Positions 6,659 through 22,991 of a DNA stretch of 36,086 bases are shown here, in pieces. The notes beneath the pieces are model-generated. The model saw only the letters and a list, made by a program, of their open reading frames with translations. It was not told the DNA's origin and made no database searches. Position 1 is the stretch's first letter; every line of letters begins with the position of its first letter. The position numbers were made by a program, and so were the translations under genes. This stretch comes from a virus, in the IMG/VR virus record IMGVR_UViG_3300022822_000049, positions 1 to 36,086 of that record. One strand, given 5' to 3'.

Positions 6659-6718
6659 TCACCGTTAGATTGCGTTAGTTGGAAATAAAGCACCCCACTC
6701 AAAACGATCTAACGGTGA
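6659..6718. terminator. 12-bp inverted repeat at the convergent operon junction, likely bidirectional terminator
   Basis: TCACCGTTAGAT at 6659-6670 is exactly mirrored by ATCTAACGGTGA at 6707-6718, with 36 bases between. The right arm and spacer lie inside the last codons of the giant - strand gene and the left arm covers its stop codon. Both sides are followed by T-rich sequence in the direction of travel, though there is no long uninterrupted T run. Its place between two converging operons suggests termination or a long stem-loop that protects the 3' ends of both mRNAs. Confidence 0.5.
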
Positions 6719-9700
6719 GTTTATTAACCCATTAAAATCAGTAGCTTTATTATAAATATTAGAATCAAGAATACTTTGAGCATCTAATCCTGTCATATTT
6801 TGTATTTGTATTTCAATACCCAAGTTAACAGGCTTATCTCTTAGCATTCTGTAAATTACTTTTTGTATTCTTAACCAAAAAGCAGGAAACAATAAAATGC
6901 CTGTATCACTAAGTTGTTTAATTGCCATAGGTAAATTTTCTTTGTAATCAGGAAAAGCTTCAATTACTTGAACTTCTGCTTCTTTATCAGACAACTTTTT
7001 TTCAGTAACTAAATATCTGTAGTAAGTTTCTTTAGCTAAAACATCTGTTAAATCAGTAGCGTAAGAACCTAGTTTAACTGATTCGCTGTTAGGCGTTATC
7101 ATAAACTGAGAAACATAATTAACAACATCAGCATCAGATTTAATTTCTTTAATTCTTGCTGCCGCCTTATCTAGCTCTTTCTGAGCACCTTTTAAAGAAT
7201 CCGCTCTACCTATAATACTACCAAAGTAAGATAATAAATCTTCACCATTTCCACCTAATCTAGACAAGTCTCTTATGTACCTGGCAAGAAAGTTGTTGTC
7301 ACCCCTACTGTCTTTAAGCAAATAACTTAACGCAGTTTGCACATCAGATTGCATACCAGATATTGTGTCAGCATTTTGATGTATTAAATCGGTACCTAAA
7401 GAGTTTACAAAACCTCTTCTAAATACACCATCAGCAGGATGAGCAGCTAGTTCTTCTTGTAAAGCAATAATTTTTTGTTTAGTTGCTGTATCACCATTAT
7501 TAGCACCTTGAACTATTCTTAAATTAATAATTTTATCTTTAATGTCAGTATAGTCTTTATATTCTTTAGCAATAATTCTATAGTCTTTTTGTATGTTAAG
7601 AGGATTTAATCCCATTACAGTTAAGTAAGAAATATTAGACATGTTGTCTTTAGCTATTTTTACCGGGTTAAGAATTACCATACTAATTTTAGAACTAGCT
7701 ACAACGCTTTTAGTTAAGCGCATCATCCATCTTAGTTTAGGGTTTTCTGACAACGAAGATTGGACACCACCTATTAACCAATAAGCTATGTCTTTTCTTA
7801 CTAAATCAACTTCTTTGTCAAAACTTTTTACATCTGACATAGACTTATCAACACGCTTATACTTAGCTTTAATTTTAGGATCTAAATTAATAAAATTGTC
7901 ATTATCAATTTTAAGAAACCAAGGATTGTCAATGTTTTCTGAAGAAAAAATACTAACAAGTTCTTTTTCATCAGATTTATCGTTAATTACCATTCTAGTT
8001 TCTTTCATTAACAAAGTATCTCTAATAATTTGAGAATCTTGTACAGCTAAAGAGTGAGCAGCTGACCTTACAAGGCTCTCTGCAGGGTCTTTTATTAAGC
8101 CTAGTGTTTCTTTCTCATGGTCTTTAAGAACTAGTTTATAGCCGTTTGCTGTAGGTACAACGTTCTTTTGACCCCTGTAACTCTTGTCTACAGTAATGTC
8201 ACCACTTGCTAATTTAATATCAGTATAAATACCTTGCAAATAAGTAGAATCTATAACAGGTCTGTAAACAATACCTAAAGTATCTTGAGTAGGCATTCTT
8301 AATATTTTCCATCCTTTCTTATCAGAACTGTCGTAATTTTTAAGACTAGCTAAAGGTATAACTCTTTTTTCCATAGGCTCTGCGTATTTGTCAGCAATTA
8401 AACTGTCATTTACAGAAACACCGTCACCATTAGCTAGTAGAGCTAGTCTGTTAGCAATTGAATTATCTTTAACTAAATTCATAAGCTTAGTGTTATTTAA
8501 CAACTCAATAAAGTTATCAACTCCTAATGCTTTAATAGATTTTAAAGCTAAAAGTTCTTTAGATTTATCATTGTCTTCAGATTTAGCTGGGTTATTTCTA
8601 TAAAGATTGTAATCAGTTCCTTTTTTAATAAATGCTGTACCGTCAACACCGTCTTTTTCGTAAACAGTTCTCATGTAAACAATTTTATCAACAGCATCAA
8701 CTTGATTTTTATGTAACTTACCCTCTAGCTCTGCTATACGTGTATCAAAATCTTCAGCAGTAACTATTTTGTCAGCTAGTATAAAATAGTCATGCAAAGG
8801 AGTTTTAGTTATAAAATCAAAAAGATTTTCTTTTTGTTGTTTAGGCATAGATTTAGTAATTTTATTAAACTTGCTTAACTCTTCTGCCATTAAACTATTA
8901 TTGTCTGCACGTAATTTAGAAAATATAGATAACAAATAGTTTTTTTTGTTTTTGTCTATATTAAAATTAGTTACTGTGTGAACTAGTTCTTGTAAAGCGT
9001 CAGAACTATCATAAATACCTTGTAACTTTTCACTGGCTCTAGCATAAGCAGGAAAATTAATTTTAAACAATCTGTCTGTAGATCTAGCTAATTTAACAAC
9101 ACCTTTTTCTATTTTAGTAGTAACCATAGAAGCTACAGCCTGGTTTAAATAGTTAAGAGTGTAACCTTTAGCTTCAGATACAGTTTCGTAATTAAACCTG
9201 CCTGCATTTAAAGGACCGTCAAATTTAATCTGGTTTTCGTTAAAGCTGTCATAAGCTGCTTCACGGTAATTAAAACCGTCTTGGATAATACCATTTACAG
9301 AATCTCTAACTTTAACAATATCAATATCTTTAGAGTACAAATCAAAAACAGTTACGTTTTCAAGTATTCTATTGACTTGCTTTTTTATGTAATCAATAGC
9401 AGCTTGAACTCTACTTTTACTACCAGCAAGAATTCCATAAATTTCTTTAGCTACTTTTGGCTCAGTAGACATAATAGCAATAAATTCATTTATTCTAGTA
9501 GATTCGTCAGTGTTAGCAACAATGTAATTAAGACGATCTTTAGTTTTATTTGTAAGCTTAGTACTCATTTTTAATTTACTTAAGCTAGTTATAGCTTTAG
9601 ACAAATACGCTACTCTAAGGTCTTGTTTTTTGCTACGTAAAGCTCTTTCAACGTAACCAACAGTAAAGCTGTGAATTATTTCATGCTCAACTAATTGTTT

Positions 9701-12700
9701 AATTGCTTTATTGCCACTTTCAGTTTTTATGTTCTTTTTTACATCTTTTGCGAACCTGTTGTCTACAGCAGATATTGCAATAGTATCAGTAGCAGGAAGA
9801 AAAGTATTTAAATCTTCTTTAACTAAATTAGGTCTAACTTTGTCTCCAAGAGACAAAAACATATCTATTACTTTAGATGTGCCTTTAAAACTTTCAACTA
9901 CGTCTTGAGCAGACATCTGGTCAAAACTTTTTAATTCAGATTTAGCTTTAGCTTTAGCTTTAACCTCTTGTTCAATTTTTACATTGTTTTCAGAAGCTAT
10001 TTTTATATCATCGTCTAATTTATTAGCTATAGATTCAGCAACAAAATCACCAATAATAGATTTTGTATCAAAATTAAAACTTTCCATAGTTTCTTTTTTA
10101 ATAGCCATAGACTTATCAATACTTTTACGAAGTTTTTCATAAGACTTAGTGCCAACTAATTCAGGACTGTAAGTAGCTATAGATTTTAGTATTTGGTCAT
10201 GTACGTCAAATTCAACAGCTAATTCCTTAGTTACTTTTATGTAAGCTTTTTCAATTAAAGCAACTGTTTTAGGAGTTGACCTAACATCATCGTGTATTAT
10301 CATTAAACCTTGAGGTATTCCTTCACTAACAAGAACGTCGTTAATAGCAGCGTACATTTGTGCTGTGTCTATGCTGTGAATAGTAGAAACATTCATTACT
10401 GTTACAGCTTTAATTTGATTTCTTGTAAGTATTTTTTCTCCGTCAACTTCAATAGCTACATCTTGAATTTTTGATATAGGAACTCCGTACTGTTGTAAAT
10501 TCTTAGGAGTCATTTCTATTTTTTCAGTACCTTTTCTACTATTCATGAGAACAGTATGAGCAGGCAACATTCTAAAATAATTTTTTTGCGTATCGTTCAT
10601 TAGTTGAAATAAAGCAGCAGTTCTGTCTGTGTACTCTTCTAAATATTTATCTAGTATGTCTTCTTTCATTAAACTGTAAAGTTTTTGAGGAACTTTAGAT
10701 TCGACTACGTTGTTTACCAAAGCAGCGTACAAACCTTCTATTTCAGTAGCAGGTGTACCAGATTCCATTTGTTTTGCTATTTCTGTTCCAGAAAGCATAT
10801 CAATAATTAATTCAATAATTTTAGGGTCACTTAAATTATTTTGAATGTCTTGAGCTATTTGCTCACTTAATACTTCAATAGAAGAAAACTCACCTTGACC
10901 GTAAATAAAAGTCAAAGTTGGAGCTTTAGCAAAACCTCGTCTTTTGTTTTTATCAGTGTATAAAACGTTATTAAGTTTAGTTAACAATCTTCTGGCTTTA
11001 TTGTTAGTACCTATTTCTGAAGCTACGTCTGTACGCATGTTGTCAGGTACTATGTCATTAATAAAATCATCAATGCTTTTTTCCATTATGCCGTAAATGT
11101 CGTTTAATTGTGCTTGAGCTTCTGGGGAATCTCTGTCTAAAATGCGTAAATCAGCTAACAGTTCAATAACATTAGCACTGGTACCTACAGCTTGTAAAAA
11201 CGTAAGCGTACCGCCAGAAGCTGTAGCATCTGCAGAAACCATGTACTCAGTACTAACAATGCCGTTAACAGGATTTCTAATATCACTAACAGCTTGAAAA
11301 CCAGTAAGTAAACTAGCGAAATCTATTCCAGGAAAATTAGAAGAAATGTTAGCTAATTGTTTAACTTGAATTTTTAATTTAACGTCTTCAGCACTAAACA
11401 TTTCAAGAGATTTTAAAGCTTTTTTTAATTTTATTTTTTCTGCAGTAAGAGTTTCTTTAGTAACAGACGAGTTTAAACCTGGAGTACTTAAATCCATAAT
11501 TGCATCAGGTGAAACACCTAAAGAATTAGCTACTTGTGAAACAACTCTTTTGTACATGTCACTATCTACTTCAGAGTCGTGTGAACCAGAAGTAAGCATG
11601 TATCTGCTGTGCTTTGAACCGTGGTAATCTAGTATGCTATTAAGCAAATACAAACGTGAGTTACGTCCTGTAGTTAACGGCATATATAATTTAGAATCAC
11701 CTTCTGGATTTATTTCCATATAGTTTTCTACAAGATCATTTAACGGAGAAGTACGTGAAATGTTTTGACCGTTAACACTTTGTTTTCTGTCTTTAGCGTA
11801 CTGATCTGATCTTTTAATATCAAACAAAGATTCCATAAGGCCGCTTTTAGCAGGTATTATACTTGCTAAATAAGTAGAAGCACTTTTACCTACACTAGTG
11901 TCTACTTTTGTGCTTAGGTTTTTTAAAAAATTATGCAGTACGTTGTTTAATTTTATAGGAGTTTTTCCTACAAAATCTTTAGTATTTTTAAGAACTAAGC
12001 CAGGATCATACTCAGTATCATTGTCTAAAATTTCTTGAGTAGGCTCTGTAGTTAAAGGTAAACTTATATTTTGAGGTTGAGTTAAATTACTAACAATATT
12101 TAAAGTGTTTATAATTCTGTTTAATACACTGCCACCGTTACTAGAAGATGCTACTAAAGAATTAGCTCTGTCAGTAAAATAAGAAACTTCTTCAGAAGTA
12201 AAATCTGCTCCTTCTTTAGTAAAAGCTGACAAATTTAAAGCTACTGCAGGCATGTCAGAAACTACAACACCTCTTTCACGAATTACTTCTTTTTCACCTT
12301 TAGTTTTGTCAACATAATCTTTTATTGTATTGGCTTCACCTGCTTTATACAGTTCTACGTAGCCTTTGTTTTTTAACATATTAAGAATTGACATACCTAT
12401 GTCATAGTATCTTTTACTAATTTCTTGAGAAGTAACGTCAGGATTGTTTTTACCACTAAAAACAAAACCTTTTTGATAGACTATCTTACGACCAATAGAT
12501 TCTGCAACTCTAGCTGTAGGCAAATTAGGTAATTCTTTTTTAGGGCTATTGCTTACTCTTTCAATTGTAAGACCTTCGTTAAGTACTTTGTCAGATTCAC
12601 CTTTTATAGATTCAAAAACTTCATGCAAAGCAATAGACATAGGTATTAGTTGATCACTAAGTACAACTTTTTCTTTAAAGCTGTCATTTTTAATTTCTTT

Positions 12701-12928
12701 ATAATCAAGACCTCTAAGAAAATTTCTTATTTTATTTTTAACAGGGTCAGAAGCTACTGTATTTTCTACAACGTTAATACCCCCAAACAAAACACTTCTA
12801 ACTTTTTCAGCATCAAACTCCCAAACTTTTACACGAAGTTCTTTTGATTGCTTATCTAGTTCTTTAGTTTCATCTAGCTTAACTAACCACTGCACGAATA
12901 CATCTTGTGGTACGCACTTCTTTGCCAT
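6665..12928 (-). CDS. Giant virion protein with N4/T7-type single-subunit RNA polymerase and metallopeptidase-like motif
   Basis: A 2087-residue protein. Single-subunit RNA polymerase signatures occur in the right order: PLTTGRNSRLY (Arg422, the DxxGR-type element); motif A DATASGG (Asp567), followed by DIYGIMEKSIDDF as in T7 RNA polymerase after its motif A; motif B RGFAKAPTLTFIYG (Arg664, Lys668, Tyr676), with the exact T7 spacing; motif C LMIIHDDVRST (His879, Asp880), matching T7 LIHDSFGT. Downstream, HEIIH (1082-1086) plus Glu1148 in NEFIA fits a gluzincin-type zinc peptidase. The rest is mostly helical. By analogy with phage N4, whose giant virion polymerase is packaged and ejected to transcribe early genes, this is a virion RNA polymerase. 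Its place as last gene of the late, opposite-strand operon also matches N4. It is shorter than the roughly 3500-residue N4 protein. Weak ribosome binding site; ATG chosen as first in frame. Confidence 0.88.
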   Translation of the reverse strand: MAKKCVPQDVFVQWLVKLDETKELDKQSKELRVKVWEFDAEKVRSVLFGGINVVENTVASDPVKNKIRNFLRGLDYKEIKNDSFKEKVVLSDQLIPMSIALHEVFESIKGESDKVLNEGLTIERVSNSPKKELPNLPTARVAESIGRKIVYQKGFVFSGKNNPDVTSQEISKRYYDIGMSILNMLKNKGYVELYKAGEANTIKDYVDKTKGEKEVIRERGVVVSDMPAVALNLSAFTKEGADFTSEEVSYFTDRANSLVASSSNGGSVLNRIINTLNIVSNLTQPQNISLPLTTEPTQEILDNDTEYDPGLVLKNTKDFVGKTPIKLNNVLHNFLKNLSTKVDTSVGKSASTYLASIIPAKSGLMESLFDIKRSDQYAKDRKQSVNGQNISRTSPLNDLVENYMEINPEGDSKLYMPLTTGRNSRLYLLNSILDYHGSKHSRYMLTSGSHDSEVDSDMYKRVVSQVANSLGVSPDAIMDLSTPGLNSSVTKETLTAEKIKLKKALKSLEMFSAEDVKLKIQVKQLANISSNFPGIDFASLLTGFQAVSDIRNPVNGIVSTEYMVSADATASGGTLTFLQAVGTSANVIELLADLRILDRDSPEAQAQLNDIYGIMEKSIDDFINDIVPDNMRTDVASEIGTNNKARRLLTKLNNVLYTDKNKRRGFAKAPTLTFIYGQGEFSSIEVLSEQIAQDIQNNLSDPKIIELIIDMLSGTEIAKQMESGTPATEIEGLYAALVNNVVESKVPQKLYSLMKEDILDKYLEEYTDRTAALFQLMNDTQKNYFRMLPAHTVLMNSRKGTEKIEMTPKNLQQYGVPISKIQDVAIEVDGEKILTRNQIKAVTVMNVSTIHSIDTAQMYAAINDVLVSEGIPQGLMIIHDDVRSTPKTVALIEKAYIKVTKELAVEFDVHDQILKSIATYSPELVGTKSYEKLRKSIDKSMAIKKETMESFNFDTKSIIGDFVAESIANKLDDDIKIASENNVKIEQEVKAKAKAKSELKSFDQMSAQDVVESFKGTSKVIDMFLSLGDKVRPNLVKEDLNTFLPATDTIAISAVDNRFAKDVKKNIKTESGNKAIKQLVEHEIIHSFTVGYVERALRSKKQDLRVAYLSKAITSLSKLKMSTKLTNKTKDRLNYIVANTDESTRINEFIAIMSTEPKVAKEIYGILAGSKSRVQAAIDYIKKQVNRILENVTVFDLYSKDIDIVKVRDSVNGIIQDGFNYREAAYDSFNENQIKFDGPLNAGRFNYETVSEAKGYTLNYLNQAVASMVTTKIEKGVVKLARSTDRLFKINFPAYARASEKLQGIYDSSDALQELVHTVTNFNIDKNKKNYLLSIFSKLRADNNSLMAEELSKFNKITKSMPKQQKENLFDFITKTPLHDYFILADKIVTAEDFDTRIAELEGKLHKNQVDAVDKIVYMRTVYEKDGVDGTAFIKKGTDYNLYRNNPAKSEDNDKSKELLALKSIKALGVDNFIELLNNTKLMNLVKDNSIANRLALLANGDGVSVNDSLIADKYAEPMEKRVIPLASLKNYDSSDKKGWKILRMPTQDTLGIVYRPVIDSTYLQGIYTDIKLASGDITVDKSYRGQKNVVPTANGYKLVLKDHEKETLGLIKDPAESLVRSAAHSLAVQDSQIIRDTLLMKETRMVINDKSDEKELVSIFSSENIDNPWFLKIDNDNFINLDPKIKAKYKRVDKSMSDVKSFDKEVDLVRKDIAYWLIGGVQSSLSENPKLRWMMRLTKSVVASSKISMVILNPVKIAKDNMSNISYLTVMGLNPLNIQKDYRIIAKEYKDYTDIKDKIINLRIVQGANNGDTATKQKIIALQEELAAHPADGVFRRGFVNSLGTDLIHQNADTISGMQSDVQTALSYLLKDSRGDNNFLARYIRDLSRLGGNGEDLLSYFGSIIGRADSLKGAQKELDKAAARIKEIKSDADVVNYVSQFMITPNSESVKLGSYATDLTDVLAKETYYRYLVTEKKLSDKEAEVQVIEAFPDYKENLPMAIKQLSDTGILLFPAFWLRIQKVIYRMLRDKPVNLGIEIQIQNMTGLDAQSILDSNIYNKATDFNGLINSPLDRFEWGALFPTNAI

Positions 12929-12944
12929 TTTTAAATCTCAATTG

Positions 12945-15900
12945 TTAAGTTTTGCAAATTGATTTTATATCACCAAAGCTTTCAGTAAACGCTTTAGCAT
13001 CTTCTTCAGACACTAATCCGTCTATAGTAGCTTCTTTGTTGTTACCATTTACATAATTCTGAGTTAAGTTATTTTTTTGCTCATCATTTAAAGTGTCCCA
13101 AAGATCTGCAGTAACAGTACCTGGGTTTTTAACTTCTTTAGTAACAGTTTCTTGAGCAGGAACTGGTTCTACAACTTCTTCTTCTACAGTTTTTTCTACA
13201 GTTTCTTCTACAACTGGTTCAGATTCTACAGTGGACTCAACCTTTACGTCTACCGTTTCCGGTTTTGACTCTTGACTAGATGCTTCTTTTTTAACCTCTT
13301 CAACAACTTCTTTCTTAACATCTGCGTTTTCACCTTTTATTAAAGCTATTTCTGGCTTAAAAGCTTTTTGAATAATAAAGTCTGTAAGAGTTCCTTTGCT
13401 GTTAGGCTTAAAACTAGTTAAAGTAGGCATAAGAGCCTCTACAACAGTCCTAATATCAGCTTCCAGCTCTATTTCTAGTTCTGGTGTAATGTCCTTATAC
13501 TTTTTATTTCTAGCTGTTAAAGATTTTTGTATAGCTCTTTTAGTGAAAGTTTTACTGTTAGATTCAGTGTCTTCAAGAACTTCCTGAACTTTTTGCAGTA
13601 AAGGTACAACATTTTCTGCACTTTTATCTTCTAGCGCTACGTACTCTTTTTCTAAAGATTTTAAACTAGATTTGTCTACTGTGTTAGAAAACCCGTCTAA
13701 AACAGAACTTCCAAAACTAGAGGTTTTGTCTCCAGCAGAATTTAAATTTTCAACAACATCATCATAATATTCGTCAAACTTAGCTTTAACTTTATCTAAA
13801 TTTTCTTCTGTAGCAGTCTTGTTAAAAGTATTTACAGCAACGTCTTTTACTTTAGTAGCAGTTGATTTAATTGATTCAACTATTCTGCCAGGTCTAGTAA
13901 GGTACTCTTTTCTAGAAGTTAATTCTGCTTTTATTATGCTTACATCGTTTTCACTAATAGAACCTTCAGTTTGATTTATAAAATCTTCACTTTTAACGTA
14001 AGAATTCATTACTTTTTGGTAAGCGTTAACAGATTCAACGTCAGCTAATCGAGTCTCACCATTAGGTCTAGCACCACGTAATGCTTTAGCAACAGATATA
14101 GAATCATTTGAATTAATAATTTGACCAGCAAGAACACCTTTTATAGGAGTAGGAAGTGTATCTTTAGAAACAGATACACTGTTTTTACCGATAGTGTCTT
14201 TACTAATTTCTTTTCTACGCACTTCACGATTTAACACAACAGTAAGCAAAGGATGCTTTTCTTGCATTAATTTAACTACGTCTTTTAATTCTTTTAAACT
14301 AACATTTTCAGCTAATTTTTTAATTTTTTTAACTTCAATTTTACTGCTTTGTGAAGTGTAATCAGAACCTAGTAAAATTAAACCTTTAACAGAACTAGAA
14401 TTGTAATTTTTAACTGCGTCAACAGTTCCTTCAGCTAAATCTTTACTTAACTCTGTTACAACAGCAGCAGCTTCGTCTAGATTGACAGATTTAAGTACTT
14501 GATTAACTAAAGCAGTACTTTTAGCAAAAGCATTTTTACTAACAGTATTAACTGCTCTTGCAACGTTAGACCCTTCAACACTTGCTTTACTAGCTGTTAT
14601 TAAACCTCTGTATTTAGATTGTACTGCATCTGTAACTCTTTTAAATTGTTTAGGATCTTGTATGTCTTGATCAGTTAATTTAAATCTTTGTTGAAAAGCT
14701 AATATTTCATTTTTTGTTTCTTCATTTTCTATTTCATTAAAAGATTTAGCTGATTCTAAATTAGCTATTTGAACGTTAGTTAAATCTGCAAATTTTTGTT
14801 GTTCTGCTTTATTTATTGCGTAAGTTTTAGCTGCGTCAGCTCTTTCTTCAGGAGAATACAATTTAAAACTAGATTTGATAGCTTGTGTTTTAGCGTATTG
14901 AGCACCTTTTTGTACTGTTCCTGCAACAACGTCAACAGTAGTTCCAGCAACTAAACCTGGAGTAGACACTACAGCTTTAGTAAGTCCACCTGCAGCAGCA
15001 CCTGCCATTGCACCAAATATAGCTTTGTCTTGATTGCTGCCTACACCAATTTCTTTTCTAAAACTAGAAACAGCAGAATCTATACTATCTAAGTCCATTT
15101 TACTTGCAAGTATTTCTTGCCATGTTTGCAAATATTCTTGAGCAGCTTCAGCACCTGATGCAGCTAATACATTTTTACTTTGACTTAAAATCCTAGAAGC
15201 TACTTGTTTGCTGTAACTTTTAGGGATGTTGTCAAACATTGATGTCATTTCTTTAACATACTCCTTTACTGCTTTTGTGTCTTTTACAAGACCTGCAGCA
15301 GAAGGAGTAAAGAATTTTTTAAATATGCCTAACTGAACAGCGTTTAAAGCTATTGCAATAGGTGTGTTTACTGCCCACCATACTTTGTCAGGAGTTTTAC
15401 CGTCATTTTTAAGTATGTAGTCTTCTTTCATTTGTTGAAGAATACTGGCACTCATTAAGCTAGTTTGGCTTGCAACTTTAACTGTTGCTCCTACGCCTTT
15501 TTTAGTAGCTGCTAATCCTTTTTGATACACACTAAGAGTTCTTCCTGATTCACGAGCTAGTACAGCTGCATCAACAGATTCTTGTATGCTTTCAGCACTT
15601 CTAAATATTTTGTTAGCTCTTCTAGCTAAAAATCCAAGACCTGCACCACCAAGAGCTGTAGCTCCAACACCTACAGCACCTTCTACTAAAGAGTTAGTAC
15701 TATCAGCAACTAATTCTGGTGCTATTTGTAAAGTTTGACCAAAAGCAGATGCGTATTTACCTAAACCTTTTAGTGTAAAGCCATCTTTATTAGCAATTCT
15801 GCCATCAGCAATAGTACCTATAATATCTGATTTGTCTTGTTTAAATTGCTGTGCAAATTCAGGATTTATACCTGATTCAATTTCAGCATTTTTAGCAACG

Positions 15901-16220
15901 TTAGGATCACTTTTACCAGTAACAAAATTAGTTAAATTATCTCTGCTTCTAAATAAACTGCCTTCGCTTAAATCTAGCAAACCTTGAACATATCCACCGT
16001 CAGTACTTCCATTGCCTCTATACTTTTCTCTTATTTGCTGACGACGAAGACTTTCAGTTTCTTGTTGAGCTTCTGAATCTAGCTGTTGACTAGATTTTAA
16101 TTTATCTTGTTTAGCAGCAGAAGTTTGTTGCAATTTTTGTATTTTATAGTCTAACAAAGACGCACTACTAGCCATAGGCTGTAGTAAAGGATTTCCTGCA
16201 TTTGAAAAAATACTAGACAT
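12945..16220 (-). CDS. Large internal virion (ejection) protein
   Basis: A 1091-residue protein, mostly helical and Ala/Lys/Ser-rich, with Gly/Ala-rich hydrophobic stretches near residues 178-200 (AVGVGATALGGAGLGF) and again near 400-430 (FGAMAGAAAGGLTKAVV) that could insert in membranes. Its C-terminal part (about 985-1055) is an acidic, Val/Glu/Pro-rich low-complexity tract (EEVVEPVPAQETV) that looks like a flexible tether. It lies directly upstream of the giant RNA polymerase gene in the transcript, as the N4 and T7 ejection proteins do. Inferred role: part of the inner core or the trans-envelope conduit that delivers DNA and the polymerase. No enzymatic motif was recognised. Confidence 0.6.
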   Translation of the reverse strand: MSSIFSNAGNPLLQPMASSASLLDYKIQKLQQTSAAKQDKLKSSQQLDSEAQQETESLRRQQIREKYRGNGSTDGGYVQGLLDLSEGSLFRSRDNLTNFVTGKSDPNVAKNAEIESGINPEFAQQFKQDKSDIIGTIADGRIANKDGFTLKGLGKYASAFGQTLQIAPELVADSTNSLVEGAVGVGATALGGAGLGFLARRANKIFRSAESIQESVDAAVLARESGRTLSVYQKGLAATKKGVGATVKVASQTSLMSASILQQMKEDYILKNDGKTPDKVWWAVNTPIAIALNAVQLGIFKKFFTPSAAGLVKDTKAVKEYVKEMTSMFDNIPKSYSKQVASRILSQSKNVLAASGAEAAQEYLQTWQEILASKMDLDSIDSAVSSFRKEIGVGSNQDKAIFGAMAGAAAGGLTKAVVSTPGLVAGTTVDVVAGTVQKGAQYAKTQAIKSSFKLYSPEERADAAKTYAINKAEQQKFADLTNVQIANLESAKSFNEIENEETKNEILAFQQRFKLTDQDIQDPKQFKRVTDAVQSKYRGLITASKASVEGSNVARAVNTVSKNAFAKSTALVNQVLKSVNLDEAAAVVTELSKDLAEGTVDAVKNYNSSSVKGLILLGSDYTSQSSKIEVKKIKKLAENVSLKELKDVVKLMQEKHPLLTVVLNREVRRKEISKDTIGKNSVSVSKDTLPTPIKGVLAGQIINSNDSISVAKALRGARPNGETRLADVESVNAYQKVMNSYVKSEDFINQTEGSISENDVSIIKAELTSRKEYLTRPGRIVESIKSTATKVKDVAVNTFNKTATEENLDKVKAKFDEYYDDVVENLNSAGDKTSSFGSSVLDGFSNTVDKSSLKSLEKEYVALEDKSAENVVPLLQKVQEVLEDTESNSKTFTKRAIQKSLTARNKKYKDITPELEIELEADIRTVVEALMPTLTSFKPNSKGTLTDFIIQKAFKPEIALIKGENADVKKEVVEEVKKEASSQESKPETVDVKVESTVESEPVVEETVEKTVEEEVVEPVPAQETVTKEVKNPGTVTADLWDTLNDEQKNNLTQNYVNGNNKEATIDGLVSEEDAKAFTESFGDIKSICKT

Positions 16221-18389: not shown

Positions 18390-18974
18390 TTATGCTTGTA
18401 ATTGTGACCCATCTGCAAATCTGCCACGAGCTACTTGTTCTCTTTTTGCAAATTCTTCATCACCTGGTCTAAATCCGTTTAACATAGCTCCATCACGAGT
18501 TCTTTGCATTAAATCAGAATTGTAAGCTAGTGAATCATTAGATAAGTTTCTATTCATGCCAGCTAACTCAAAACCAAATTGCTTTTTAGCTTGTTTGTTA
18601 GCACTGTAAGCATTGTAAGCTGAACCTAAAGCGGCTAATCCTTGGCCTGCTTGACCAAATCCTTTCATAAATCCACTAAATTTATTAAAAACACTAGAAT
18701 TTTGACCTGGGTTAGCGCCAGAAAAATCAAAAGATTTTGGGCTAGTATCAGTAAGATCAGCACTCATTTTAGGTATTTGATAATCTAGTAAACTAATACC
18801 CGGTATTTTACTAAAATTTTGTATTCCGCTTAAAGTAGCCATGTTAGGAATTTTAGGGGAAGGAGCTTTGTAACCAAAATCATAGCCTCTGTTTGAAGAA
18901 CTAAAATTGTTACCGTCCATAAACCTACTCATTGGGACAGAATCTGTTATTGGAGCACGATAGTCATTTGACAT
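18390..18974 (-). CDS. Internal virion protein, small
   Basis: A 194-residue protein. The N-terminal half is Pro/Ser/Asn-rich and probably flexible. The middle has a Gly/Ala-rich helix (GFGQAGQGLAALGSAYNAYS) followed by KQAKKQFGFELAGMNRNLSN, a pattern I associate with small ejection or internal core proteins of podoviruses (an amphipathic, membrane-active helix then a charged helix). It lies between the large virion protein at 18990 and the 715-residue internal protein, consistent with a T7 gp14-like role. No motif proves it. Confidence 0.5.
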   Translation of the reverse strand: MSNDYRAPITDSVPMSRFMDGNNFSSSNRGYDFGYKAPSPKIPNMATLSGIQNFSKIPGISLLDYQIPKMSADLTDTSPKSFDFSGANPGQNSSVFNKFSGFMKGFGQAGQGLAALGSAYNAYSANKQAKKQFGFELAGMNRNLSNDSLAYNSDLMQRTRDGAMLNGFRPGDEEFAKREQVARGRFADGSQLQA

Positions 18975-18989
18975 AATATATTCTCTAGT

Positions 18990-21467
18990 TTATTGTACGC
19001 CTACTTTTAAAGCGTTATCGTAATAATTACCGACTAATGTATCATAATTATACAAAGCATTAAAGTCGTATTGTATTCCTATTGCTCGGTACATAGCAGT
19101 AGAAGGAGACACTAAATAAGCTATAAATTCTACATCTATTCCTGATTCTACAGCTTCTTCCATTTTTTGTATTTCTTCTGCCCTAGAAGAATATATTTCT
19201 TTAAACTCATTAAGTTTTTCTTGAATATCTTGTGTATCTACAGTTATGTCAGTTACGTAAAGTTCTGAAAAAGTAGTTACGGTGATTAACAAAAACTCAG
19301 CACTTAAAAGTTCCATTCCACCGTTAGCGTCACCAACAGCAAACATAGCTGCAACTGCCGCAACTGCTATTACAGCTTTTAAAAAATCGTTGTCTGTCAT
19401 TGCCATAAGCGCTATTGCTACTTTTGCTATAGCTAAAGAAGCTAGTATTGTTATTGCTAATTTAACGACTGCTGCTGTACCTTTTCCTAAAGTTATTATA
19501 GTAATAACAACAATAATTATAATAAGAACAATTTTTACAAGTTCTGTAAAAGCTTTAGTTTTATACCAAGCTAATTCTGTTACTCGTACTGCGTAAATAT
19601 TTAATCTTAAAGCATAAGGGTATAATTCTAGTTGTTCTAAAAATGAAAGACTGTTTGCTGCAAAATAAGATAAAGGTATATTAAAATTTTCGTCTCCTAA
19701 TTTAGAAGCGCTAGTGTTATTAAGACCTGCTGCTTTAATAAATTCTAAAGTAGACAAGTCGTGCAAAACAATAAATACACATTCAGTCACAGTTATTTGT
19801 TTAAGCAAAAACAGTCTTTTACCTGATATGTAATGAAGATAACTGCCTATTGTTCCTATTGATCTAGGGGCGTTATAAAATTCTTGTTTACTCCAAACAA
19901 GAGCACGTTTTACGTTTTGTTCTTCAAAAGTAGCAATATAGCTATTTTCTGTAGAATTAAACAAACTTTGAGAAGGGTCTGTTACAGTGTTAAAAATACC
20001 AGAACTAGTTTGAGTTAAAGGAAAAAATTGTTCAAACAGTACAGCTCCTACTGCAGTAACGTTATCTGACGGATTAACACCAAAATTTAAATAAGCTTCT
20101 TTTATTAAACCTATATCTGGACTTAATTCTACCTGCTCTTTTAAACTTTCAAAAGTTAAACCTACATTTTGTACTAAGTTTTTAACTCCTTCAAAATTTA
20201 TTTCTCCAATACTGTTAGCGCTTACTGTAGTATTATTAGTTCTAAGTATAGCTATAGGCATCATTTGTAAATTATCAAGAGTGTCTGTTTTTAATTTTAA
20301 ATTAGGCAAAACGTTAGTAGCTGTGTCATACAACCAGTAATAAAATTGTTGGTCATTAGAAGTATAGTAAGTAGCAGTTATGTAAACGTTTACAGCAAAA
20401 GCAGGTCTGTTTATTACTTTGTTTAGCTCTTCTTCTTCAGCAAAAGGAGTGTTTGTATTATCAATAAAAACAGGAGAAGAATTACTAAAAACTATGTCAG
20501 TAGTTATTGTTTTTAAATTTTCTACAATTTCTACAACTTCTATAAATCCTAAAGTAGTTACACTGTCTAAATTAATAGACATTTGTACACTTCCAGAAGA
20601 CAAAGAATTAGCTATTGTATTAACATTAAAATTTACAGTATTAGTGTTTTCTAAAATAGTTGCAGAATTTACAGATGTGTAATGAGTACCGTCTACAGCT
20701 GTACCAGAATAAGATAAATTAAAAGTAGCTGAAGCACCTGCAGCTAACATTCTGTCAGAAGAAATTGTGTATGTACCTGTAGTATTGCCTTGTAAAACTT
20801 CTGTATAACCAGACAAATAAAATTTAGTAACAGTTACAGGTCTTTTTATAGCAATATTATAAGTATTGCTACCGCCTTCGTAAGTTACAGTTTCCAGTGT
20901 GTAAGTGTCAAAAGAACCATATTCATCAACGTAAGTTAAAGTATTAGTCCAATTTTGGTAATTATAAGTTGTTTGTAAATAATATTTGTAAAATATTAAA
21001 CTAGTAATGTAGTTATGGTCAGCAGTTAACAATATTATAGATAAACCAATATCATTTTCTACGGCATTTTTTACATCATTATTATCAAGCCTACTACCTC
21101 TTATGTTACTTTCAGGTAAAGCATAAGGATAATCGTTAAGACCAAAAGAATAATAATTTTCTATTTTAGAAAAAGCTTCTGAAGTATTTGACAAAAAAGG
21201 AGACAAGATACCTGCTTTAGGTTGGTTAGAATAAGATAAAGCAGATTGAGTAATAGCGTTATCTTTAATTCCATTTAAATTATCTTCATACAATTTTACA
21301 GATATACATTTTATATCTACAATAGTTTCGTCTTCAACGCCAAATATTCCTACAACTACTTCTGCAATAGGCATTACTATTTCGTCCCAAGCAAAACTGA
21401 CAATACCTTCTACTGCGTCAACAACAGCAGATACAATACTTTTAGTTATTTTTACTACAAAAGACAT
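18990..21467 (-). CDS. Large virion protein with Calx-beta-like domain and membrane segments
   Basis: An 825-residue protein. Residues about 235-310 (AAGASATFNLSYSGTAVDG, then TILENTNTVNFNV) follow the Calx-beta pattern, a calcium-binding beta sandwich common in adhesins. Residues about 640-700 hold two to three strongly hydrophobic helices (KIVLIIIIVVITIITL; LAITILASLAIAKVAIALM), unusual for a phage tail protein. A helical, acidic C-terminal part follows. The amphipathic N terminus (MSFVVKITKSIVSAVVDAV) may also meet membranes. Its 5' end overlaps the upstream gene by 13 bases. Inferred role: virion protein that contacts or penetrates the host envelope, such as a tail tube, plug or ejection protein. 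It is also the first large gene after the ACP/ketosynthase cassette. Confidence 0.55.
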   Translation of the reverse strand: MSFVVKITKSIVSAVVDAVEGIVSFAWDEIVMPIAEVVVGIFGVEDETIVDIKCISVKLYEDNLNGIKDNAITQSALSYSNQPKAGILSPFLSNTSEAFSKIENYYSFGLNDYPYALPESNIRGSRLDNNDVKNAVENDIGLSIILLTADHNYITSLIFYKYYLQTTYNYQNWTNTLTYVDEYGSFDTYTLETVTYEGGSNTYNIAIKRPVTVTKFYLSGYTEVLQGNTTGTYTISSDRMLAAGASATFNLSYSGTAVDGTHYTSVNSATILENTNTVNFNVNTIANSLSSGSVQMSINLDSVTTLGFIEVVEIVENLKTITTDIVFSNSSPVFIDNTNTPFAEEEELNKVINRPAFAVNVYITATYYTSNDQQFYYWLYDTATNVLPNLKLKTDTLDNLQMMPIAILRTNNTTVSANSIGEINFEGVKNLVQNVGLTFESLKEQVELSPDIGLIKEAYLNFGVNPSDNVTAVGAVLFEQFFPLTQTSSGIFNTVTDPSQSLFNSTENSYIATFEEQNVKRALVWSKQEFYNAPRSIGTIGSYLHYISGKRLFLLKQITVTECVFIVLHDLSTLEFIKAAGLNNTSASKLGDENFNIPLSYFAANSLSFLEQLELYPYALRLNIYAVRVTELAWYKTKAFTELVKIVLIIIIVVITIITLGKGTAAVVKLAITILASLAIAKVAIALMAMTDNDFLKAVIAVAAVAAMFAVGDANGGMELLSAEFLLITVTTFSELYVTDITVDTQDIQEKLNEFKEIYSSRAEEIQKMEEAVESGIDVEFIAYLVSPSTAMYRAIGIQYDFNALYNYDTLVGNYYDNALKVGVQ

Positions 21468-21945: not shown

Positions 21946-22779
21946 TTACTTGTTAATTGTACAAGACCCGTAGAACCCACCTACACCGTTAGCTACAACG
22001 AGTATACTACCACGAATAGAATCATCAGCCATAACTATGCAAAGCTCTAACAAGCTACTTATGCCTTGTGTGTGACCTATGTTTTGCTTATACGTTATAG
22101 GAATTCCTAATTTAGCTAGGTCTTCTTCTGCTGCGTCATTTGATGGAGATCCTGTAGCGTGAAGTTTTACGTAGTTTACCGGGTACCAAGGTATTAAATT
22201 ATTTAAAGTTTCAGCAGTAAATGAAAAAGCATTAGCGTTATAAGCATACCTCCATTTAGTGTGCTCAATATCAACTCCACCACGACCTAGTTTCATGTAA
22301 ACAAAGCCATCACCACAAAGTATACCTATTCTAAGTTCTTTAAATAAACGTATAGTGTCTTCTGTTATACGTTCACCGCCTATAAGTATTACTTCTTCAC
22401 AAACACCTGTTTCCATCCACTCACGAGCTATATGCAAAGCTTGCATACCACTAGCACAAGTTCCTGTAGTGTTAGTAGCGGCTCTAATAAAGTGCTTATT
22501 TTTAAATGTACTTAACCATTTGTGCATTATAAAACTAGTGCCTGAACATACAGCTACAGTATATTTTCCTGTAACTTTATTAGTTACACCACTTTCCGCT
22601 TGAGATATGGCAAAACCTTCAACATAAATAAACCCGGTAGGTTTAGTTAGCTCTATGTCTAATTGAGATAGTTTTATAAATTGGTTTACTGAGGAAGTAT
22701 TTCTTACTAATTCTGGTATTGCAAAATACCCTTCTCGTTTTTCAGAAGGCGCTATGTGCTTGTAGTCGAGGATTTGCAT
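21946..22779 (-). CDS. Compact beta-ketoacyl synthase (KAS/thiolase fold)
   Basis: A 277-residue protein with the full condensing-enzyme signature. TGTCASGMQALHIA has nucleophile Cys108 (as in FabB/FabF nucleophile elbows). KLHATGSPSNDAAEE has His207 (the HGT-TP-ND motif). YKQNIGHTQGISSLLE has Lys231 and His236, with the Lys-x4-His spacing of FabF K335/H340. NGVGGFYGSCTI matches the glycine-rich C-terminal loop. The Cys-His-His triad predicts Claisen condensation of acyl-thioesters on ACP. At 277 residues it is much shorter than the about 410-residue FabF; the reductions fall in the N-terminal part and between Cys108 and His207. The gene overlaps the upstream ACP gene by 28 bases, supporting a working pair. 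It lies amid virion genes, so it should be expressed late. An authentic metabolic role is inferred; activity is untested. Confidence 0.87.
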   Translation of the reverse strand: MQILDYKHIAPSEKREGYFAIPELVRNTSSVNQFIKLSQLDIELTKPTGFIYVEGFAISQAESGVTNKVTGKYTVAVCSGTSFIMHKWLSTFKNKHFIRAATNTTGTCASGMQALHIAREWMETGVCEEVILIGGERITEDTIRLFKELRIGILCGDGFVYMKLGRGGVDIEHTKWRYAYNANAFSFTAETLNNLIPWYPVNYVKLHATGSPSNDAAEEDLAKLGIPITYKQNIGHTQGISSLLELCIVMADDSIRGSILVVANGVGGFYGSCTINK

Positions 22780-22991
22780 AATGTTACCAAATCATATATT
22801 TTTAAATTTTCAACGTTAACATTTTCTACGTATTCGTTTTCTATATTGTATTCAGTACCAATAGTCATAAGTGCTATTAAAGCACCTAGACTATCTAATT
22901 GACTGTCTATAAACATGCTTTTTATGTTTACAGGTTGACCGTTTTCGTGATCTATAGTCTGATTAATAAATTTTAATATTGGGCAATTCAT
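22752..22991 (-). CDS. Acyl carrier protein (ACP)-like
   Basis: A 79-residue acidic protein of ACP size. The segment FIDSQLDSLGALIALMTIG contains Asp33-Ser34-Leu35, the DSL motif whose serine carries 4'-phosphopantetheine, at the usual distance from the N terminus and at the start of helix II. The following EYNIENEYVENVNVENLK fits helices III and IV of ACPs. It starts at a TAATG overlap with the upstream structural gene and overlaps the ketosynthase gene by 28 bases. A ketosynthase directly downstream makes the ACP call much stronger. It would need a host holo-ACP synthase for activation. An isolated DSL motif could be chance in a different acidic protein, but the length, position and neighbour argue against it. 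Confidence 0.8.
   Translation of the reverse strand: MNCPILKFINQTIDHENGQPVNIKSMFIDSQLDSLGALIALMTIGTEYNIENEYVENVNVENLKIYDLVTLCKSSTTST

Follow-up and report, generated by a model that had tools for sequence, protein, structure and literature searches.

Why does a tailed phage keep an acyl carrier protein (ACP) and a beta-ketoacyl-ACP synthase (KAS) among its virion genes? The question is raised by a 36,086-nucleotide viral record, here called the window, in which a sequence-only reading had pointed out such a pair within the late operon, and for which it had considered three late targets of the product: virion proteins, the host membrane before lysis, or a signalling acyl chain.

The phage and its late operon

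The window is a 36-kb Schitoviridae fragment from a marine, N4-like phage. It has a portal of the SU10/N4 type, the gene order gp56-gp54-gp53 and a virion RNA polymerase, which place it in the Schitoviridae, and it also encodes the major head protein and a DNA polymerase. The portal shares 62.8% identity with its counterpart in Alteromonas phage PT11-V19. Two adjacent ORFs of 2087 and 1091 aa make up the virion RNA polymerase region (6665-16220), and the same region is likewise split in PT11-V19 (genes 28 and 29); in N4 it is a single protein of 3500 aa, and the sequence match of the two-ORF region to N4 is limited to the C-terminal part. The 1091-aa ORF may correspond to the N-terminal domain.

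The late operon runs in the order gp56 (head), gp55-like, gp54-like, ACP, KAS, a 161-aa protein and an 825-aa gp53-like protein, followed by the positions of gp52, gp51 and gp50 (Table 1). In E. coli phage N4 gp54 directly adjoins gp53, with nothing in between, and the cryo-EM work on N4 from 2025 identifies the tail tube as gp54 and the tail plug as gp53, in which a hydrophobic knot built from residues 29-56 and 670-716 closes the tube like a cork (PMC12633501). The insertion point of the cassette is thus precisely the junction of the tail-tube and tail-plug genes, and the late-operon placement in the sequence-only reading was correct. The ACP and KAS reading frames overlap by 28 bases (22752-22779), and the gene for the 161-aa protein starts 5 bases past the KAS stop and overlaps the plug gene by 13 bases. 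Coordinates and lengths of the pair, the 28-base overlap, the DSL serine and the four catalytic residues of the KAS are all as that reading had given them.

Table 1. Features of the cassette and its neighbours in the window.
Feature	Coordinates	Strand	Basis
gp54-like tail-tube gene, 163 aa	22991..23482	-	phrog_2050 virion structural protein 3.5e-29; N4 gp54 position; 1-base overlap with ACP start
Acyl carrier protein, 79 aa, phosphopantetheine Ser34 in DSL	22752..22991	-	D33-S34 invariance; PDB ACP profile match
Compact beta-ketoacyl-ACP synthase, 277 aa, C108/H207/K231/H236	21946..22779	-	FabF profile match; residue alignment with E. coli FabF
Predicted GNAT-fold acyltransferase-like protein, 161 aa	21455..21940	-	AlphaFold model, Foldseek; homologues in PT11-V19 and R22Y
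Tail plug, 825 aa, homologous to N4 gp53, putative substrate of acylation	18990..21467	-	phrog_2220 2.9e-27; hhalign to N4 gp53 6.6e-11
N-terminal amphipathic tag of the plug, about 39 residues (MSFVV...MPIAEVV), proposed acyl acceptor region	21351..21467	-	absent from cassette-less gp53; matches P22-like tags
gp52-position ejection gene (context)	18390..18974	-	phrog_2646 1.5e-8; N4 gp52 position

The acyl carrier protein and the ketosynthase

As single sequences the ACP and the KAS have marginal Pfam matches, and the KAS alone as query retrieved next to nothing; the matches are firm once relatives are aligned, and the family was reached by alignments alone. A profile of 38 viral KAS proteins matches 142 PDB sequences at E<=0.001, the best of them FabF at 2.5e-30, and a profile of 32 viral ACPs matches PDB ACPs at E=8.8e-7, with NodF and the ACPs of complex I among the matches. 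Judged by profile search the phage proteins are thus a true ACP homologue and a true FabF-like ketosynthase homologue, and the identities first proposed for the pair hold.

Residues C108, H207, K231 and H236 of the window KAS align with the corresponding Cys, His, Lys and His of E. coli FabF and are invariant in 38/38 viral KAS, at about 22% identity between the two main groups, indicating selection for catalysis. Loss of the cysteine or of the histidines in homologues, which had been put forward as an observation that would overturn the assignment, is therefore not seen. In the ACP the phosphopantetheine motif is D33-S34-L35 (DSL), and D33-S34 is invariant in 32/32 aligned viral ACPs. In a tree the viral KAS lie on one side of a branch with E. 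coli FabF, FabB and FabH on the other (support 99/94), and the N4-like KAS form a clade (99/99), both to be read with caution because of the long branches.

ACPs serve as structural subunits elsewhere, and the complex I ACPs among the profile matches would fit a pair of structural or chaperone parts, comparable to the ACPs of mitochondrial complexes and catalytically idle. With all four catalytic residues of the KAS kept invariant across such distant groups, an idle pair is very improbable.

The window ACP has diverged far from AcpP. As no phosphopantetheinyl transferase was seen, a host enzyme would have to charge this diverged carrier. As the sequence-only reading had remarked for ketoreductase and dehydratase, a scan of the late-operon ORFs and their neighbours shows no other fatty-acid enzyme (reductase, dehydratase or FabG). 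Phage ACPs have been noted in the literature as being of unclear function (PMC5463345).

Distribution and gene order

One pattern scan of IMG/VR, built from a two-sequence alignment, gave 117 viral contigs with confirmed relatives; another alignment (A2) gave no confirmed relative, and that of the N4-like GNATs is too variable to be used for such a scan. The earlier statement that such enzymes are very rare in phages can therefore not be kept, and the pair is widespread in environmental phages. The search for conserved pairs that had been suggested places the ACP directly upstream of the KAS, overlapping or nearly so, in 39 of 40 non-redundant viral KAS loci. Most environmental pairs are located upstream of a gene for a predicted GNAT-fold protein and of an N-terminally tagged tail protein. 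Counted from the GNAT side, over loci with at least 2 kb upstream, both ACP and KAS are present at 67 of 69 loci and neither at the other 2. The sequence-only reading was right about the pair but overlooked the adjacent GNAT-fold gene and the tagged plug gene, both of which point to a mechanism.

The cassettes fall into two main groups, the N4-like group, to which the window belongs, and one that we call P22-like, a name that follows the nozzle annotation of a single member and is not a taxonomic assignment. In the P22-like group a P22 gp10-like gene is located upstream (annotated as 'phage stabilization protein' in MW202545), and the tagged gene is directly followed by a DNA ejection protein (phrog_4287). 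The order is tail nozzle, ACP, KAS, GNAT, tagged protein and ejection protein, which is the same order as in the N4-like cassette. Most P22-like KAS sit in phrog_35856, a PHROG without annotation. The Alteromonas phages PT11-V19 and R22Y, both cultured isolates, have an ACP, a GNAT and a plug with a tag starting in MG at the same place, without a KAS, and their ACP and GNAT genes carry no functional annotation (L001 11983-12733; L002 11980-12748). The link between ACP, GNAT and tag is thus separable from chain elongation.

Other arrangements are also found. On the freshwater contigs L018, L019, L020, L030, L033, L035, L036, L078 and L081 the ACP-KAS pair stands beside helicase-like and small DUF3310-like genes, and a protein of about 105 aa follows in place of the GNAT. 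The freshwater records carry no GNAT gene, on fragments that are too short to be informative, and other uses of the pair, beside replication-type genes, are possible there. On a 125-kb viral contig from a larger and different phage type (L016, 5390-8749) the pair is followed by a 302-aa gene that is not a GNAT. In L088, L089 and L158 a GNAT-family gene and a tagged tail protein were found with no ACP or KAS nearby, L088 having 1.8 kb of upstream sequence, and the GNAT may sometimes use host acyl-ACP.

Pairs next to replication-type genes in some freshwater fragments would suit auxiliary metabolic genes, with ACP and KAS raising or redirecting the fatty-acid synthesis of the host during infection, for membrane or energy, and with an unrelated GNAT. 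The acpP-fabF-fabG genes of Rhodobacteraceae prophages, also a phage-borne ACP and KAS, are listed as metabolic genes and have been interpreted in this way (PMC8224337). Those genes, however, keep the bacterial fab-operon order fabG-acpP-fabF, whereas the phage cassette has no FabG and instead a GNAT and a tagged tail protein, to which it is strongly linked. The family is also virtually absent from cellular genomes at the sensitivity of the scan, the sole relative among 84,980 bacterial and archaeal genomes, searched with strict patterns by which relatives may be missed, being a phage-like contig with the same cassette. Taken with the divergence of the ACP from AcpP and the absence of a reductase or dehydratase in the ORFs scanned, this makes a metabolic role unlikely.

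The third gene is predicted to encode a GNAT fold

The gene following ACP and KAS encodes a protein of about 143-171 aa in both groups. For the 161-aa protein of the window a GNAT fold is predicted, with the GNAT order of strands and helices in an AlphaFold model of moderate confidence (pLDDT 80.7), and the model of the P22-like family shows GNAT topology with a pLDDT of 92.6. In Foldseek the top match of the window protein is the N-terminal acetyltransferase Ard1 (4e-4, TM about 0.5), and the top matches listed are GNATs; those of the P22-like family are GNATs as well, RimI among them. A sequence link between the two third-gene families was looked for and rejected, since they are not alignable by profile (hhalign 0.19).

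In neither family is the CoA pyrophosphate-binding loop [QR]xxGx[GA] conserved at its beta4-alpha3 position; three single sequences match the motif, two of them elsewhere in the chain. Among 11 N4-like and 23 P22-like members there is no Pfam match to any acyltransferase family, RtxC/HlyC included. ApxIC, which is related to HlyC, folds as a GNAT and has no CoA-binding elements; the acyl donor of characterised RtxC enzymes is acyl-ACP (PMC8339906). The phage proteins resemble the RtxC/HlyC enzymes in their predicted fold, in their similar small size and in lacking the CoA-binding loop, and, as those enzymes do, they would modify a membrane-active protein encoded next door (PMC8339906). They differ in having no Pfam acyltransferase match, in bringing their own ACP and KAS, and in that the tag is often without lysine. 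The N-terminal acetyltransferases Ard1/NatA and RimI, which give the best structural match of the window protein and one of the top matches of the other family, use acetyl-CoA by means of the [QR]xxGx[GA] loop, which the phage GNATs lack. The natural acceptors of N-terminal acetyltransferases start with small residues, for example Ser, Ala, Gly or Thr.

GNAT-like enzymes of the FeeM/LuxI kind also use acyl-ACP, and ACP, KAS and GNAT would suffice to make a small molecule, such as an N-acyl amino acid or a signal resembling an acyl-homoserine lactone, in the manner of FeeL/FeeM or LuxI. Such a product would leave unexplained both that the tag accompanies the cassette in two phage groups and that the position beside the tagged gene is fixed, and we consider it quite improbable.

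An N-terminal tag on the tail plug

In the N4-like group the gene after the GNAT is a gp53 homologue with an extra N-terminal amphipathic tag of about 40 residues. For comparison seven gp53 proteins were taken from six cassette-less Schitoviridae and from N4, in all of which gp54 is directly followed by gp53. These align with the cassette plugs at hhalign 9e-46, but from about profile position 42 on, and are without the tag (the first 41 residues or so), which is thus found only with the cassette. The tag is an amphipathic stretch whose first residues are M-S or M-G and whose end lies near a conserved Pro. The N4-like and the P22-like tags, on proteins that are otherwise unrelated, align with an hhalign score of 43.4, whereas the best of 200 column shuffles reaches 15.8. 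The P22-like tag profile matches N4-like cassette plugs (L009 2.7e-7, L013 5.4e-6, L008 8.2e-6), the window plug at only 0.18, and none of the seven cassette-less gp53 proteins. The association of cassette and tag probably rests on two independent lineages, as the N4-like carriers may stem from one acquisition.

Some of the cassette-less gp53 proteins (L085, which is N4 gp53, L167, L169, L170 and L171) have MG(L/F)F(S/G)... at or near the annotated start. This resembles an N-myristoylation signal; no acylation genes are located beside these genes, and some of the annotated starts seem too early.

Gly or Ser occupies position 2 of the tagged proteins in 41 of 49 cases, compared with 21 of 158 control ORFs (near-copies included), and the counts in a second set are G35 S35 A4 C1; Ser at this position is partly forced by ATGA start-stop overlaps. 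A small residue at position 2 was rejected as evidence because 83% of the control ORFs have one, and the evidence from this position is limited to the G/S bias and the scarcity of Ala. Lysine is lacking in 23 of 45 tags and cysteine in 45/45, which disfavours acylation of Lys or Cys side chains within the tag and leaves the N-terminal amine or Ser/Thr side chains as the acceptor common to all tags.

The acyl group could instead be destined for internal lysines of the plug, for an ejection protein or for lipopolysaccharide, with the tag as a docking site or membrane helix. GNATs of the HlyC type do acylate internal lysines (PMC8339906), and ejection-protein genes are located directly downstream. 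The G/S bias at position 2, retained in two unrelated proteins, is however most simply explained by an N-terminal acceptor, so that another destination is doubtful.

A putative lipidation module

The rhizobial NodF-NodE-NodA system consists of a dedicated ACP, a dedicated ketosynthase and an N-acyltransferase that moves the chain to an amine. The phage cassette has the same composition, a special ACP, a special KAS that would make or load the chain and a putative acyltransferase to an amine, but the Nod acceptor is a chitooligosaccharide, whereas we propose a virion protein acylated at its N-terminus. In addition the phage KAS is far shorter, and the viral genes form a group of their own relative to E. 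coli FabF, FabB and FabH. By analogy, the cassette would act like the known acyl-ACP-dependent acylation operons, Nod and RTX.

We propose, with a probability of roughly 0.55, that the cassette is a phage-encoded protein-acylation module, similar to NodF/NodE/NodA, which lipidates the N-terminus of a tail protein. Several lines of evidence point this way: the homology of ACP and KAS is firm and their catalytic residues are invariant; the pair is linked to the GNAT and the tagged tail protein at nearly all loci counted; third genes that cannot be aligned with each other are both predicted to fold as GNATs and are both without the CoA loop, as in RtxC/ApxIC; the tags match across N4-like and P22-like proteins and are absent where there is no cassette; and residue 2 of the tagged proteins is biased to G and S. 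Virion proteins are accordingly the best supported of the three late targets first considered, over the host membrane before lysis and a signalling acyl chain.

The acyl transfer, the type of chain, the target residue and the role in infection are what we infer from these computational observations. A dedicated phage ACP would be charged with phosphopantetheine by the host and would receive an acyl chain from host fatty-acid synthesis, and the phage KAS would load or extend the chain on it. The GNAT-fold protein without a CoA loop would then take the chain from the phage ACP and move it to the N-terminal amine of the plug tag, on a Ser or Gly exposed by removal of Met. The lipid-bearing N-terminus of the plug might help or tighten the hydrophobic cork of the tail tube; alternatively, it might insert in the host envelope once the plug is released, or hold the plug in the outer membrane during insertion of the pore protein.

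The wider proposition, that two unrelated groups of tailed phages share a dedicated, virus-specific lipidation system in which a portable tag at the N-terminus of tail-gating or ejection proteins is acylated by the phages' own ACP, KAS and acyl-ACP-dependent GNAT, stands in our judgement at even odds. The sequence-only reading knew of no such system, and in the open papers we found no published description of it, nor any phage acylation system or viral counterpart. If the proposal is true it would, to our knowledge, be the first pathway for N-terminal lipidation of proteins to be described in bacteriophages, one in which phage enzymes fatty-acylate virion proteins. It is an open question how short-tailed phages close the tail and drive proteins and DNA across the cell envelope, and a lipid anchor made by the phage for its plug would offer a new chemical means of doing so. 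Many unannotated 'fatty-acid AMGs' would then become virion-assembly genes, and the cassette would offer a small modular set of enzymes and tag for acylating protein N-termini in bacteria.
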